Positions 4,282-49,765 of a DNA stretch of 64,000 nucleotides are shown here, piece by piece. The notes below the pieces were generated by a model that did no database searches, was not told the DNA's origin, and saw nothing but the letters and a program-made list of their open reading frames with translations. The translations under genes and the position numbers were made by a program. Source of the DNA: Permianibacter aggregans (GTDB taxonomy: Bacteria > Pseudomonadota > Gammaproteobacteria > Enterobacterales > Permianibacteraceae); the NCBI RefSeq assembly GCF_009756665.1, contig NZ_CP037953.1, positions 2,542,001 to 2,606,000 of the forward strand, given 5' to 3'. The first letter of the stretch is position 1. Each line of letters starts with the position of its first letter.

Positions 4282-4737
4282 CTAGGGCGTTTGAATGCTA
4301 ACCTCATCTGGGAGAGTACCAGCAGACACGGATTGCTGTGTGTCTAAACGGGTAAGTTTGTGGCCATGAATGAGCCAAGGCGAGGTATCGCCGCTTGAGC
4401 ATAAAAGCAGAACTTCATTCGACTTCAATTCTCCACGCTTTACAGCGTAGCTGAGGATGTAACAAGGATCTCTATTTTTCGCGACAAGGCTAGAACTCTG
4501 AATCTCAATTTGCGTGACATAGCCATATTTCTCCTGCAGCCCCCCGAGAAGCTGAGGCCAGTTCTCGACTTGACGCCTAAACTCAGGAGAAAATTGAACC
4601 AATGCTGTCGCGATATCCCCGACTTTTAATGCACCATAGAATTTCTCAGCACTTGCAACAGGTAGATTCACGTCGACGTATTGGACATTGCACCCGGTCA
4701 GTACCGCAATAATAAAGATGATGAATAACTTTCTCAC
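4282..4737 (-). CDS. uncharacterised lipoprotein
   Basis: A 151-residue protein starting MRKLFIIFIIAVLTGCNVQ, a lipoprotein signal peptide with lipobox LTGC (Cys16). The mature part resembles small periplasmic proteins of the DUF4019/DUF4864 kind (AEKFYGALKVGDIATALVQFSPEFR, then EIQSSSLVAKNRDPCYILSYAVKRG), but the match is not firm enough to name. Base composition is nearer to the two nuclease genes than to the core. The gene stands alone between two nearly identical 84-bp direct repeats, like a small cassette. TCCTCC is seen on the plus strand just before the ATG, giving GGAGGA as ribosome-binding site. Function is unknown. Confidence 0.75.
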   Translation of the reverse strand: MRKLFIIFIIAVLTGCNVQYVDVNLPVASAEKFYGALKVGDIATALVQFSPEFRRQVENWPQLLGGLQEKYGYVTQIEIQSSSLVAKNRDPCYILSYAVKRGELKSNEVLLLCSSGDTSPWLIHGHKLTRLDTQQSVSAGTLPDEVSIQTP

Positions 4738-4786
4738 AAACTCCTCCGCGTGAAAAAAAAACGAAACATGCAGTCAGCAAGCGTAG

Positions 4787-4804
4787 GGCGGGTCATGACC
4801 CGCC
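4787..4804. repeat. perfect 18-bp palindrome beside the right direct repeat
   Basis: GGCGGGTCATGACCCGCC is a perfect dyad. Together with the following GGTGCGTCGTGACGCACC it forms the two-hairpin unit common in REP-like elements of gammaproteobacteria. Confidence 0.7.
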
Positions 4805-4831
4805 ATTTCGAAAATCCCTCGAAATGCAAAG

Positions 4832-46206: not shown

Positions 46207-46782
46207 GTGCACAAAGGGTGGATGGCGATGCTGCTGTGGAGTGCAGCCGGGCTGGCAATGGCTGCCGAAGCAGAGAAAGCGCAGGAAACGTTTTATATCA
46301 GCGATCAACTGACGGCGCCGCTGCGTTCCGGTGCCGCCCGTGAACAGAAAATCGTCAACCAACTGAAAGCCGGCGAAGTGGTGACGGTGCTGGAAAAAGC
46401 GCCCGGCACCGGTTTCCTGCGGGTGCGCTCAGCGAGTGGTATCGAAGGCTGGATAGAAGCCGAACGGGTGGTCACCGAACCGCCGGCGCTGGTCCGTTTC
46501 AACGCGCTGAAACGCGATTTCGATGCGGCGGCTGGCGAACTGGAATGGATCAAGAACAACGCCCCGAGTCAGGAACAATTGCAGCAGCAGGCCCATGAAC
46601 TGCAAGTGCGTGTCGTTGAGCTGGAAAACCAGATCGAAGTGCTGACCCAGCAAAACTCCCGGCTCGAAGAACGCTTTCAAAGCGAAGTGTTGTATGCCGG
46701 GGCGCTGGTGATGTTGGCTGGTTTGGTTTTGGGCTGGTTAGTTTCTGCAATCAAAGGCAAACGAAGAGATGGCTGGCATTAA
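46207..46782 (+). CDS. TIGR04211-type bacterial SH3 domain protein (YgiM-like)
   Basis: About 191 residues: signal peptide (cleavage near AMA|AEA), bacterial SH3 domain (about 28-90; TFYISDQLTAPLRSG, GEVVTVLEK, IEGWIEAE), a coiled coil (about 105-155) and a C-terminal transmembrane helix (about 158-180). This is the YgiM family of periplasmic-facing, membrane-anchored proteins of unknown role. A GTG at 46207 with AAGG about 10 bases upstream is preferred; TTG 46201 or ATG 46222 are alternatives. Its stop codon is the first part of the repeat element at 46781. Confidence 0.85.
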   Translation: MHKGWMAMLLWSAAGLAMAAEAEKAQETFYISDQLTAPLRSGAAREQKIVNQLKAGEVVTVLEKAPGTGFLRVRSASGIEGWIEAERVVTEPPALVRFNALKRDFDAAAGELEWIKNNAPSQEQLQQQAHELQVRVVELENQIEVLTQQNSRLEERFQSEVLYAGALVMLAGLVLGWLVSAIKGKRRDGWH

Positions 46783-46921
46783 AGCAGTCACCAAGATGCC
46801 TGGAGCTCGGCGATCTGCGCGAATGCGGTGCTCGGAGTCCTCATTTACTATTTGTAAACTCCGGTTCCTCCGCTGCTATTCACGCACCTCGCCATCGCCC
46901 AGACATTTTGGTGACCGCTTT
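46781..46921. repeat. long inverted-end repeat element, copy A
   Basis: A 141-bp element. The ends (AAAGCAGTCACCAAGATG and CATTTTGGTGACCGCTTT) are imperfect inverted repeats with three mismatches over about 23 bases. The core (TGCCTGGAGCTCGGCGATCT ... CTCGCCATCGCCCAGA) is shared with copy B at 49481, but the ends are not. The core includes TTTAC-tattt-GTAAA. It starts at the stop codon of the SH3-domain gene. Confidence 0.88.
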
Positions 46922-46952
46922 AACTCTGAATTTCAGGCACCAGGAACCGAGT

Positions 46953-47426
46953 GTGGAATTCCATTTAAAACATTTCGACGAGCTGAGTCTCGATGAACTG
47001 TATCAGTTGCTGAAACTGCGTCAGGACGTGTTCATTATCGAGCAGATGTGCCCGTTTCCGGATATCGATAACCTCGATCAAACGGCGCTGCATTTGTGGT
47101 GTCAGCAAGGCGGCAAGATGCTCGCCTATTTGCGCTTGCTGCCGCCGACGGCCGAGCGGCCCGATGTCGTGTCGCTGGGCCGGGTTTGCAGTGCATTCGA
47201 AGCCCGCGGCGGTGGCTACACCCGGCAACTGGTGCAGCAAGGTTTGCAGGAACTGCAACAACGCTTTCCGCAAGCACGCTGCGAAATCGGCGCGCAATCC
47301 TACTTGTTGGCGTTTTATCAGCGCGCCGGTTTTCAGGTGTTCGGCGAGCCCTATCTTGAAGATGGCATTCCGCATCGGCACATGGTCTGCCCGTTGGCGC
47401 AATGGTCGCCAGCCCGCGCACAGTAA
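46953..47426 (+). CDS. GNAT family N-acetyltransferase (ElaA-like)
   Basis: A 157-residue acetyltransferase of the ElaA group: ELYQLLKLRQDVFIIEQMCPFPDIDNLDQ at the start, LGRVCSAFEARGGGYTRQLVQ with the acetyl-CoA loop, and YLLAFYQRAGFQVFGEPYLEDGIPH near the end (segments described, not continuous). A GTG at 46953 with AGGA 7 bases upstream is the likely start, since the frame upstream runs into repeat element A. The substrate is unknown. It lies 9 bp before glpE. Confidence 0.88.
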   Translation: MEFHLKHFDELSLDELYQLLKLRQDVFIIEQMCPFPDIDNLDQTALHLWCQQGGKMLAYLRLLPPTAERPDVVSLGRVCSAFEARGGGYTRQLVQQGLQELQQRFPQARCEIGAQSYLLAFYQRAGFQVFGEPYLEDGIPHRHMVCPLAQWSPARAQ

Positions 47427-47435
47427 TGGGATGTA

Positions 47436-47756
47436 ATGATGAAAAGTTTTGAACGCATCAGTTGTCTGCAGGCACAGACGAAAATGCAGAACGAAAACGC
47501 CGTGCTGGTCGATATTCGCGACCCGAACGCGTTCGAGGCCGCCCATGTCGATGGCGCCACCCGGCTCAGTAACGAAAACCTGCAGCAATTTTTGCAGCAG
47601 GCCGACCATGACAAGCCCTTGCTGGTCATGTGCTATCACGGCCATAGCTCGCAACAGGCGGCGCAGTTCCTGGCCCAGCAGGGTTTCGAGCAGGTTTTTA
47701 GTGTCGATGGCGGCTTTGAGGCCTGGCGTAAACAACTGCCGTTTGTCGGGCGCTAA
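47436..47756 (+). CDS. glpE: thiosulfate sulfurtransferase GlpE
   Basis: A single-domain rhodanese of 106 residues: VDIRDPNAFEAAHVDGA and the active-site loop MCYHGHSS with catalytic Cys66. The loop CxxGxS and the length match E. coli GlpE, which transfers sulfur from thiosulfate to cyanide or thioredoxin in the cytoplasm. It is probably co-transcribed with the upstream GNAT gene. Confidence 0.9.
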   Translation: MMKSFERISCLQAQTKMQNENAVLVDIRDPNAFEAAHVDGATRLSNENLQQFLQQADHDKPLLVMCYHGHSSQQAAQFLAQQGFEQVFSVDGGFEAWRKQLPFVGR

Positions 47757-47855
47757 TTCCAAAACGCCAACCCCGATTGTCGTCGCGGGCGATTTTCCGC
47801 AGGGCTTCTACACTTGTGTTCATGGACCGGCTGCCGATAAGGCCAGCAACACTCC

Positions 47856-49484
47856 ATGTTCGCGTTTCATGGCATACGCAGCAAAATTCTGGTCGTCATT
47901 CTGTCGGCAGCGCTGGCGCTGATGCTGCTACTGGCGTTGCTGTTCGTGCGTTTTGTTGGGCCATCATTTCTCGCTCTGGAACAGGATAGCGCCGGCCGCG
48001 ATATGCAGCGGGTGATGGCCGCCATTGATCAACAACGTCGGCTGATCGCCTTGATGTGTGGGGATTGGGCGTCATGGACCGAGATGTATGCCTACGCCCG
48101 GCAGTACGATGAAGCGTTCTATCAAAACAACCTGACGGCAGAAAACGCCTCCACCACCGGTATGGATATGATTGCCGTGGTTACCGCTGACGGCCGTCTG
48201 CGTGAAACCCATTTTTACCGTAATGGCGAGCATTACCAACCGGTAATTGAAAGTGCCCTGGCGCCAGAGAGCCCCTACTTTCCGGCCATCATTCAACCCT
48301 TGTTGCGACCCGTGCATAGCGAGGCTGAGCGTTATCAGCAACGTCACCTGATGCTCTATGTCGAAGACCATCCGATTCTGATTGTGGCGCGCCCCATCAC
48401 ATTGGAACACGAACGTGATCCGGCCGGCGTATTGCTGATGATGCGGGCCCTGGATCGCGAGCGGATTGATGAGTTGAGCCGCAATGCGTCGGTGGAGTTC
48501 ATGCTGCGACCGGCCGGCGCCATGCGCCCGATTGTCAGCATCGAAGGCGATCGGTTTCTGGCAACACTGGCAAATGGTAGTGCCTACGATGGCGTGGTTG
48601 CCGACAAGTTGTTGTGGTTGTGGCGACCGATCCCGGAGTTTTACGGTGACCAAGTATATACAGTGTTGTCATTGCCGCGCACGCTGACCTTGCAGGCATT
48701 CAGCAATTTGTACTGGGCGATCATTCTGCTGTGCGTATTCACATTGGTTCTGGCGTTTGTCCTGTACCGGGTGTTGCTGCGTGAATTGCTCAATCCGTTG
48801 CGCGTAGTCACCGATGGATTGCGCAACATCGAACAGAATCCCGAGTTGAACCTGCAATTGCAGGAAGTCGGTGCCAGCGAATTGCGGCGTCTGATCCGCA
48901 GTTTCAACAGCATGAATGAAGAACTGAATGATTATCGCCGGGAAATTGAGCTGTTGTCATTGACCGATCCGTTAACCGGTTTGCCGAACCGGCGTCAATT
49001 TGAGCAGGTGATTGCTCGTGAGTGGTTGCACGCGGTGCGCGAGAAAACGGCGTTGACGTTGATGATTGTCGATGTCGACTGGTTCAAGCGTTACAACGAT
49101 TTTTATGGGCATCAGGCCGGCGATCATTGTCTGATTGCAATCAGCGAAGCATTACAAAAAGCTGTGAAGCGTTCCACCGATCTGGTGGCCAGAATTGGCG
49201 GCGAGGAATTCATCGTCGTGTTGCCGCAAACCGAGATCGCTGGGGGCAAAGCCGCCGCTCAGCGGGCGCTGGACATCGTTCGCGACTTGCACTTGGTGCA
49301 TGAGGCCGGCGGAGCACGCAAGATTGTCACGATCAGCGTCGGCGTCAAATCCGGTGTGCCGAGTGCAACCGATACCATTGATGACTGGCTGACTCAAGCC
49401 GATCAGGCGCTGTATCGAGCCAAGCAGCAGGGACGCGATCGTTTTGATATCGCCGATGAGCGCGAGCCTTCTGCGAAAGCCTAG
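47856..49484 (+). CDS. CHASE4-HAMP-like diguanylate cyclase
   Basis: A 542-residue membrane protein: an N-terminal helix (about 10-32), a periplasmic CHASE4 sensor domain (about 40-270; CGDWASWTEMYAYA, DMIAVVTADGRL), a second helix (about 285-308), a HAMP-like linker, and a GGDEF domain (about 370-530) with LTDPLTGLPNRRQFE and GGEEF at 448-452. RSTD five residues before GGEEF is an inhibitory I-site, so product feedback is expected. It makes cyclic di-GMP in response to an unknown periplasmic signal. Its stop codon lies inside the left end of repeat element B. Confidence 0.93.
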   Translation: MFAFHGIRSKILVVILSAALALMLLLALLFVRFVGPSFLALEQDSAGRDMQRVMAAIDQQRRLIALMCGDWASWTEMYAYARQYDEAFYQNNLTAENASTTGMDMIAVVTADGRLRETHFYRNGEHYQPVIESALAPESPYFPAIIQPLLRPVHSEAERYQQRHLMLYVEDHPILIVARPITLEHERDPAGVLLMMRALDRERIDELSRNASVEFMLRPAGAMRPIVSIEGDRFLATLANGSAYDGVVADKLLWLWRPIPEFYGDQVYTVLSLPRTLTLQAFSNLYWAIILLCVFTLVLAFVLYRVLLRELLNPLRVVTDGLRNIEQNPELNLQLQEVGASELRRLIRSFNSMNEELNDYRREIELLSLTDPLTGLPNRRQFEQVIAREWLHAVREKTALTLMIVDVDWFKRYNDFYGHQAGDHCLIAISEALQKAVKRSTDLVARIGGEEFIVVLPQTEIAGGKAAAQRALDIVRDLHLVHEAGGARKIVTISVGVKSGVPSATDTIDDWLTQADQALYRAKQQGRDRFDIADEREPSAKA

Positions 49485-49691
49485 AAGCCATCTCAAAAAT
49501 GCCTGGAGCTCGGCGATCTGCGCGAATGCGGTGCTCGGAAAAATCCGCCAGGAGCGGATTTTCGTGGAACCCGGAGGGTGAGCCACATGGATGTGGCGAA
49601 CAATCCTCATTTACGATTTGTAAACTCCGGTCCCTGCGCTCCTCTTCGCGCACCTCGCCATCGCCCAGACTATTTTTGAGATAGCTTCTAG
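49481..49691. repeat. long inverted-end repeat element, copy B
   Basis: A 211-bp element with ends CTAGAAGCCATCTCAAAAAT and ATTTTTGAGATAGCTTCTAG, inverted repeats with one mismatch in 20. The core matches copy A except for an insert of about 65 bp (49540-49604) that has its own hairpin AAAATCCGC-n5-GCGGATTTT. The element starts at the stop codon of the diguanylate cyclase gene. Confidence 0.88.
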
Positions 49692-49765
49692 TTGTGTCCG
49701 GGGTCATAAAAAACGAAAACGGCGAAGCGCCGTTTTCGTCATGCAAAAATACAGTGGCCGGTTAT

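Follow-up and report, generated by a model that had tools for sequence, protein, structure and literature searches.

Two short elements of the Permianibacter aggregans genome, here called A and B, share a conserved centre, differ in their outer arms, and in each of them the two arms pair with one another. Both lie in a stretch of 64,000 nucleotides from contig NZ_CP037953.1 (positions 2,542,001 to 2,606,000, hereafter the window), and they raise the question of what kind of mobile element combines a constant core, changing ends and a stem that runs over the full length. The answer that we consider quite likely, drawn from sequence comparison, is that A and B are non-autonomous, full-length-palindromic miniature inverted-repeat transposable elements (MITEs) mobilised by the transposase of an insertion sequence (IS) of the IS5 family, that A carries ends other than those of the family, and that both belong to an ERIC-like superfamily whose arms are transposase-specific and exchangeable.

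As an earlier note on this DNA had stated, the two copies have a common core, comprising a 72-nt block (89% identical) and a 55-nt block (91%), and the outer arms of either copy form an inverted repeat (20 nt at 95% in B; by the fold in A). Both elements fold end to end: A does so beyond chance on either strand (z = -9.0 on the plus strand and -10.8 on the minus strand, 0/200 shuffles in each), and the fold of B reaches z = -7.2, with none of 200 shuffles as good. The placement of the two copies at the stop codon of the preceding gene is likewise confirmed, the preceding open reading frames (ORFs) terminating at 46782 and 49484.

A Family with Fixed Ends and an IS5-Type Partner

The merged matches of searches with A and B comprise about 40 copies in the 4.27-Mb genome, a count for which a limited number of candidates was scored per search, so that further decayed copies may exist; the matched lengths range from 87 to 274 bp, the shortest (c17) having its right end cut in extraction. 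A covariance model (R1), built from 16 of these copies and one from the same-genus genome G001, recovered all 40 together with a few more distant places in the P. aggregans genome, and an R1 match at genome positions 1769691-1769839 displays a third end type. The arms were aligned for 38 of the 40 copies, excluding c17 and c20 (right end misaligned): the arms of B are the family consensus, and every row except A (37/38) carries 0-3 changes in the 16 positions of each arm. As in MITEs, the members are short, multi-copy and without coding capacity, and terminal inverted repeats are common to all aligned copies but A. The earlier note had concluded that this is not how a simple transposon with fixed terminal repeats behaves; the family behaves as one, with TA on both sides.

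A pattern search for the terminal repeat GAAGCCATCTCAAAAAT disclosed, in the same genome, a pair of repeats 901 bp apart at 683887-684787. The enclosed element has TA next to both of its ends and contains two overlapping frames (145 and 134 aa) with matches to DUF4096 and DDE_Tnp_1, NCBIfam transpos_IS5_3 being the best match of both, and it thus has the properties of an autonomous-type partner with the same ends and a predicted transposase. It is the sole NF033580 site that a family search found in the P. aggregans genome; the same search gave none in G001, which has one clear copy of the short element, and none in a further genome, G002. We take the 901-bp element to be a member of the IS427 group, and a frameshift and a TA target to be usual for such elements. 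A second kind of MITE, at 687224-687354 of the same genome (L066 4725-4855), joins GAAGCCATC IS5-type ends to an unrelated 100-bp core, as expected if the transposase reads the ends. The core of the A/B family occurs with GAAGCCATC ends in most copies and with GTCACC ends in A, and the same hairpin tip is found within other inner sequence and GAAGCCATC ends in G002 (L138) and in genome G214.

A gene at another place in the genome apparently supplies the transposase that moves the A/B family: the IS5-family transposase would cut at the GAAGCCATCTCAAAAAT ends and insert the element at TA. No transposase remnant was recognised between the ends of A or B, and a plasmid search with B gave no matches. 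Two solitary GAAGCCATC-like repeats (3739666 and 3877224) lack a partner over a distance of 2.5 kb when up to 4 mismatches are allowed, nor was a transposase recognised in the frames near them. A separate locus of the genome, 908851-909060 (L067), carries the same ends and the first ~16 core bases, its centre being replaced by a REP-like inverted pair (TCATTCCCGCGCAGGCGGGAATCCAG).

Target Site and Stop Codons

G001 conserves the order of the genes around A, and its A site is empty, the SH3-domain gene and the start of the acetyltransferase gene being separated by a gap of 22 bp without arm-like sequence. The comparison comprises one site in one relative, where an empty site is combined with the TA duplication that flanks A; it could not be extended to B because another gene occupies its site in G001. 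Joining the flanks yields a stop codon in six of the six copies examined whose stop overlaps the left TA, which argues that only the TA is host sequence and that the target is the TA of a pre-existing TAA or TAG.

These observations bear on a proposal of the same note, in which the left arm derives from the host gene and an inverted copy of it, generated on insertion, forms the right arm. The proposal took its appeal from A and B both starting at a stop codon. For this family it is rejected: arms of the B type recur in 37/38 rows and also bound an IS, the empty A site of G001 holds no arm sequence, and, contrary to the expectation that left arms always begin at stop codons, just 17/40 copies have the stop codon of an ORF of at least 300 nt no more than 6 nt away (versus 36/197 of the YTAR sites that the flanks contain outside long ORFs). 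Stop-codon placement is a preference, not a rule, and insertion at the TA of stop codons would be frequent because insertions within genes are lost.

The Ends of Copy A

Only 6 of 108 core positions of A are off the consensus, compared with 5 (left) and 4 (right) of the 16 positions of its arms, so that arms which the earlier note had called unrelated are better described as a departure of A from the family repeat. Within the 16-nt repeat, three identical changes are present on both arms and a fourth position is changed on both to different letters; A is in addition 1 nt shorter at each tip than the family repeat. A relative with other inner sequence in G001, L144, has the left arm GAAGACGTCACCAAAACG, which is the best match to the right arm of A among 120 arms of 60 other elements (score 14, the next being 11), a score reached by 0/20,000 shuffled arms. 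This suggests that a second end type is likely present in the genus, mainly on the strength of that one arm. Since A combines the family core with other ends, one of them like the arm of L144, the ends of a second transposase most likely replaced those of A or shaped them. At 0-2 mismatches A-type ends occur in the P. aggregans genome in A alone, and at 3 mismatches the pattern has 15 further places, equal to the reversed-pattern control (15).

The simplest competitor holds that the family is a plain IS5-derived MITE, that A is an old or damaged copy with drifted ends, and that the stem is kept through conservation of the terminal repeats only. It accounts for the IS with matching ends, for TA on both sides and for the fixed arms of 37/38 rows, and it agrees with arms that, A excluded, lack clear covariation in the 37-copy count given below and with the failure to find an IS with the ends of A. 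We nevertheless regard it as rather unlikely. Drift does not sit well with a core near the consensus next to arms that bear three identical changes on both sides; the core itself covaries; and other genera combine the same tip with other ends and another duplication size.

Maintenance of the Stem

In an alignment of 17 sequences, two-sided changes are found in 14 of 48 pairs, amounting to 21 cells versus 4.0 expected (0/500 shuffles), and slid controls reach at most 3 pairs. A second count, on 37 copies (c04, c17 and c28 dropped; right arm of c20 misaligned), gives 26 two-sided cells in the core versus 7.4 expected (0/2000 shuffles) and 13 in the arms, A included, versus 5.5 (3/2000). Identical changes on both arms, taken from the 38-copy alignment, number 8 versus 0.75 expected with A (0/5000) and 5 versus 0.66 without it (0/5000). 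The excess of two-sided changes over the shuffles indicates maintenance of the full-length stem, chiefly in the core, a conclusion qualified by the relatedness of the copies; the covariation over the whole stem that the earlier note had proposed therefore stands mostly for the core, the signal in the arms being weak once A is left out.

Coupled changes could alternatively stem mainly from hairpin-templated correction, replication or repair using one arm as the template for the other, an explanation that we hold to be doubtful as the main source. It would suit the matching both-arm changes within a single copy, A, the covariation of the core, the four shared changes without any mismatch between the arms of L239 in G002, and the excess of shared changes in the elements of genus g35 described below. 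Coupling is, however, slight or lacking in the arms of the A/B family without A and in those of G214, and the origin of the first changed arm, as well as the difference between TA and TNA duplications, is left unexplained. In the exchange of ends favoured here, the arms of one copy would remain complementary because both ends need recognition, and hairpin-templated repair may contribute by copying changes between arms, thereby keeping their complementarity.

Related Elements in the Order

Matches to R1 occur in 40/295 genomes of the order including P. aggregans (39/294 others) and in 17/99 genera, the copy numbers per genome being lower bounds because no more than 10 candidates were scored in each. 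Of the 123 matches in other genomes, 58 were fetched for comparison, with preference for genomes that had several, and L145 of the own genome was added. Thirty-one diverse aligned members share a hairpin tip with the signature GGAA-CC / UCA / TTTAC-loop-GTAAA / CUCC / GG-TTCC, in which the UCA/CUCC internal loop is nearly invariant and 9 of 11 pairs display compensatory changes (one pair, for example, is U-A in 16 members and G-C in 15).

The arms vary between genera and within G002, yet mostly match themselves: the own-arm scores average 12.6 (61 elements, namely 59 plus A and B), compared with 6.6 across genomes (3372 pairs) and 4.9 after shuffling. Searching 797,701 bases of G002 with the core alone yielded four matches, two of them new and with yet other self-matching arms. 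Six of the nine copies seen in G002 have one end type, the other three having other ends, and these six display 15 shared changes versus 4.1 expected (11/5000 shuffles). The arms of g35 hold 19 shared changes versus 5.4 expected in 32 copies (0/5000), or 18 versus 5.0 in the 30 copies that remain after removing those with the same flank; this genus looks Aeromonas-like, an A. caviae record resembling the g35 element at 86% over 98%, in 8 places. The conserved core with independently self-complementary ends that the earlier note had described for A and B is thus a property of parts of the superfamily, such as the six G002 copies, A being its sole clear case in the window.

Exact GAAC...GTTC ends are present in 21 of 39 elements of g35 and G002; 12 of these 21 have TNA on both sides, with identical triplets in 10 of the 12, which points to a 3-bp duplication instead of TA. 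Superfamily members would accordingly combine a common hairpin tip with arms specific to the local transposase, and the conserved tip probably functions either as a folded RNA or as a DNA hairpin. This modular reading, a conserved tip with exchangeable or co-evolving arms, is the bold part of our proposal and is not proven.

Selection might instead act through RNA, a role in mRNA processing or as a small RNA (sRNA) keeping the element and its pairing. The compensatory changes in the tip and the near invariance of its unpaired letters would fit, as would the sub-threshold likeness of the right half to the sRNA sX9 (see the last section), the position of A between same-strand genes separated in G001 by a 22-bp spacer, and the link of ERIC RNA to mRNA stability mentioned in the available part of one paper (PMC2229807). 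The empty A site of G001 speaks against such a role, and a hairpin functioning at the DNA level would yield the same covariation; we judge the RNA explanation possible, with the balance against it.

A further arm type, GGGNACCTCTAWAAAT, is common to L213 (viral contig, 4666-4813) and L141 (G002) and may correspond to the ends of a further IS. The element L153 (846-993) of an enterobacterial genome lies ~70 bp downstream of a GlmY small-RNA gene, and in E. coli N3 the element lies between qseE and qseG.

Evidence against End Exchange by IS5-Type Transposases

Several results weigh against mobilisation by IS5-type transposases with exchange of arms. (i) Regarding the partner, inspection by eye at up to 1 mismatch revealed no IS-sized pair of matching ends in six Aeromonas-like genomes or in G001, G002 and G214. 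(ii) Regarding the second end type, an IS with A-type ends was not found in the own genome, and four exact matches to the A-type pattern in other genomes, none with a partner repeat, were judged chance; the left arm of A scores 10 against the left arm of L144, tied with the left arm of B, and 5 against the right arm of L144. (iii) Regarding the arms of the family, the 37-copy count without A gives 8 two-sided cells versus 5.05 expected (207/2000 shuffles), and identical both-arm changes fall to 2 versus 0.39 (242/5000) when A, c21 and c39 are excluded, in tests whose significance is raised by shared ancestry. (iv) Regarding the superfamily, R1 holds arm pairs, so that its matches favour paired arms; own-arm pairing is weak in 15 of 61 elements, with scores of at most 9 (8 of the enterobacterial type and 7 of g35). 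The arms of G214 have 1 shared change versus 1.7 expected, and among 13 viral-contig loci chosen by the tip pattern alone, 3 have flanking inverted repeats that outscore every one of 300 shuffles. The 13 loci are mostly of the enterobacterial type, the terminal repeat of which is often short, and this control, selected on the tip only, indicates that lineages differ in arm coupling, which is strong in some and weak in others.

Features of the Window

Table 1. Parts of copies A and B and their surroundings in the window
Feature	Positions	Strand	Remarks
Copy A	46782-46920	+	139 bp without TA; core as in the family, terminal arms unusual
A, left TA	46780-46781		target duplication; within stop TAA 46780-46782 of the SH3-domain gene
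A, right TA	46921-46922
A, left arm AAGCAGTCACCAAGAT	46782-46797	+	second end type (likely)
A, right arm (reverse complement AAGCGGTCACCAAAAT)	46905-46920	+
A, conserved hairpin tip	46829-46874	+	CTCGGAGTCCTCATTTAC TATTT GTAAACTCCGGTTCC, unpaired UCA / CUCC
Copy B	49484-49688	+	205 bp without TA; typical long-form member
B, left TA	49482-49483		within stop TAG 49482-49484 of the diguanylate cyclase gene
B, right TA	49689-49690
B, left terminal inverted repeat GAAGCCATCTCAAAAAT	49484-49500	+	same repeat on the IS5-family element near genome position 683,887
B, right terminal inverted repeat (reverse complement GAAGCTATCTCAAAAAT)	49672-49688	+
Nested hairpin module, ~65 bp	49540-49602	+	not in A or other short-form copies
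B, right part of conserved hairpin tip	49603-49640	+	TCCTCATTTAC GATTT GTAAACTCCGGTCCC

Copy A follows the stop of the SH3-domain gene and precedes a same-strand GNAT acetyltransferase gene, and copy B stands between a CHASE4-GGDEF gene and a convergent FliL-family gene. Just after B, between the convergent genes, positions 49713-49739 comprise a perfect 12-bp inverted repeat (ACGAAAACGGCG/CGCCGTTTTCGT), likely a bidirectional terminator. The ~65-bp module of B is formed by two to three hairpins (AAAATCCGCCAGGAGCGGATTTT...CCACATGGATGTGG...GAACAA); it is nested in 18/40 copies of the own genome, in tandem in two of them, while three others (c10, c20, c27) have it reversed and at a different place, and it also occurs in other surroundings in G002 (L018, L021). 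The module has the look of another mobile repeat, smaller than the first. A scan of the window against Rfam at gathering thresholds gave no matches.

Comparison with Known Systems

ERIC, with IRU and RU-1, resembles the A/B family as a non-coding, intergenic, multi-copy element that forms a full-length imperfect hairpin, has TA at its ends and duplicates TA, according to the available parts of the ERIC papers (PMC2759123, PMC2229807). Differences concern the length (127 bp for ERIC in those parts, versus 139 bp for A and 205 bp for B), the arms, which are unrelated in sequence, and the enzyme, the same parts of these 2007 papers assigning no transposase to ERIC whereas the A/B family has an IS5-family partner in its genome. 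A model from 31 members without ERIC (R2) matches the centre of ERIC at two E. coli loci with 18.2 and 16.4 bits (E 2.2e-5 and 7e-5, filters off), the second match spanning the tip alone; R1 scores 15.6 and 13.5 bits on the same loci. In the 861,701 bases of the window and G002, R2 matches of at least 15.6 bits are exclusively members or their opposite strand, in a background search with default filters, where weak matches can be lost. The ERIC-type tip, UCA-stem-CUC, is thus present in the A/B family with moderate statistical support from two loci of one family; the ERIC consensus aligns well at the tip only and does not extend over the full length of the A/B family. A relationship to ERIC through the tip is suggestive, not proven.

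The RUP element of Streptococcus pneumoniae is comparable as a small element with ends matching a resident IS and a TA target, and IS630-Spn1 is its proposed mobiliser in the part of the source available (PMC2229807). The partner of RUP is of the IS630 family, that of the A/B family of the IS5 family. We know of no tip shared by the two. IS5-family IS and their MITEs resemble A and B in the ends, the TA and the two-frame DUF4096 plus DDE transposase, the difference being that the A/B core is an ERIC-like hairpin and not an evident internal deletion of an IS. REP and REPIN elements with RAYT comprise palindromes of 20-40 bp with a GTAG tag, compared with a 140-bp palindrome with IS5-type repeats at its ends in the A/B family.

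A 150-bp E. coli element related to L153, which we take to be possibly the RSA repeat, is present in 5375/5426 E. coli genomes at a median of 5 places, and R2 scores 94.7 and 100.2 bits at two of its loci. It has the same tip and hairpin as the A/B family but other arms, often reduced to a short terminal repeat. The Xanthomonas sRNA sX9 (Rfam RF02228) aligns with the tip and right half of several members at 25.5-37.5 bits, below its cut-off of 44. R2 scores 23.4 and 13.7 bits at two Xanthomonas plasmid loci (E 6e-5 and 0.026), and the full element was not seen in Xanthomonas. In the parts of the papers available, sX9 is among the 20 most prevalent sRNAs (PMC9029176) and sX9 loci are raised by copper stress (PMC10924375). 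The relationship to sX9 is a lead; it would suggest that sX9, often annotated as a bacterial small RNA, may be half of a mobile hairpin.

A wider proposal, to which we give somewhat less than an even chance, would unite ERIC, the E. coli 150-bp repeat, the Aeromonas family, the A/B family and sX9 in one superfamily defined by the tip. Their arms would be modules matching resident IS5-like ends, with the duplication size (TA or TNA) following suit, the tip would be an end-swapping hyper-parasite, and ERIC would be mobilised by an IS-family transposase matching its arms. With an ERIC-like family and its probable transposase in one genome, which transposase moves which ends becomes testable, and the occurrence of one tip with different ends in relatives makes the role of the nearly invariant tip testable as well. 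No paper on the A/B family was among the matches listed in the open-licence PMC literature, which is no proof of novelty. By these comparisons the A/B family would be a known kind of element, a MITE family mobilised by an IS5-type transposase, in which copy A carries other ends.

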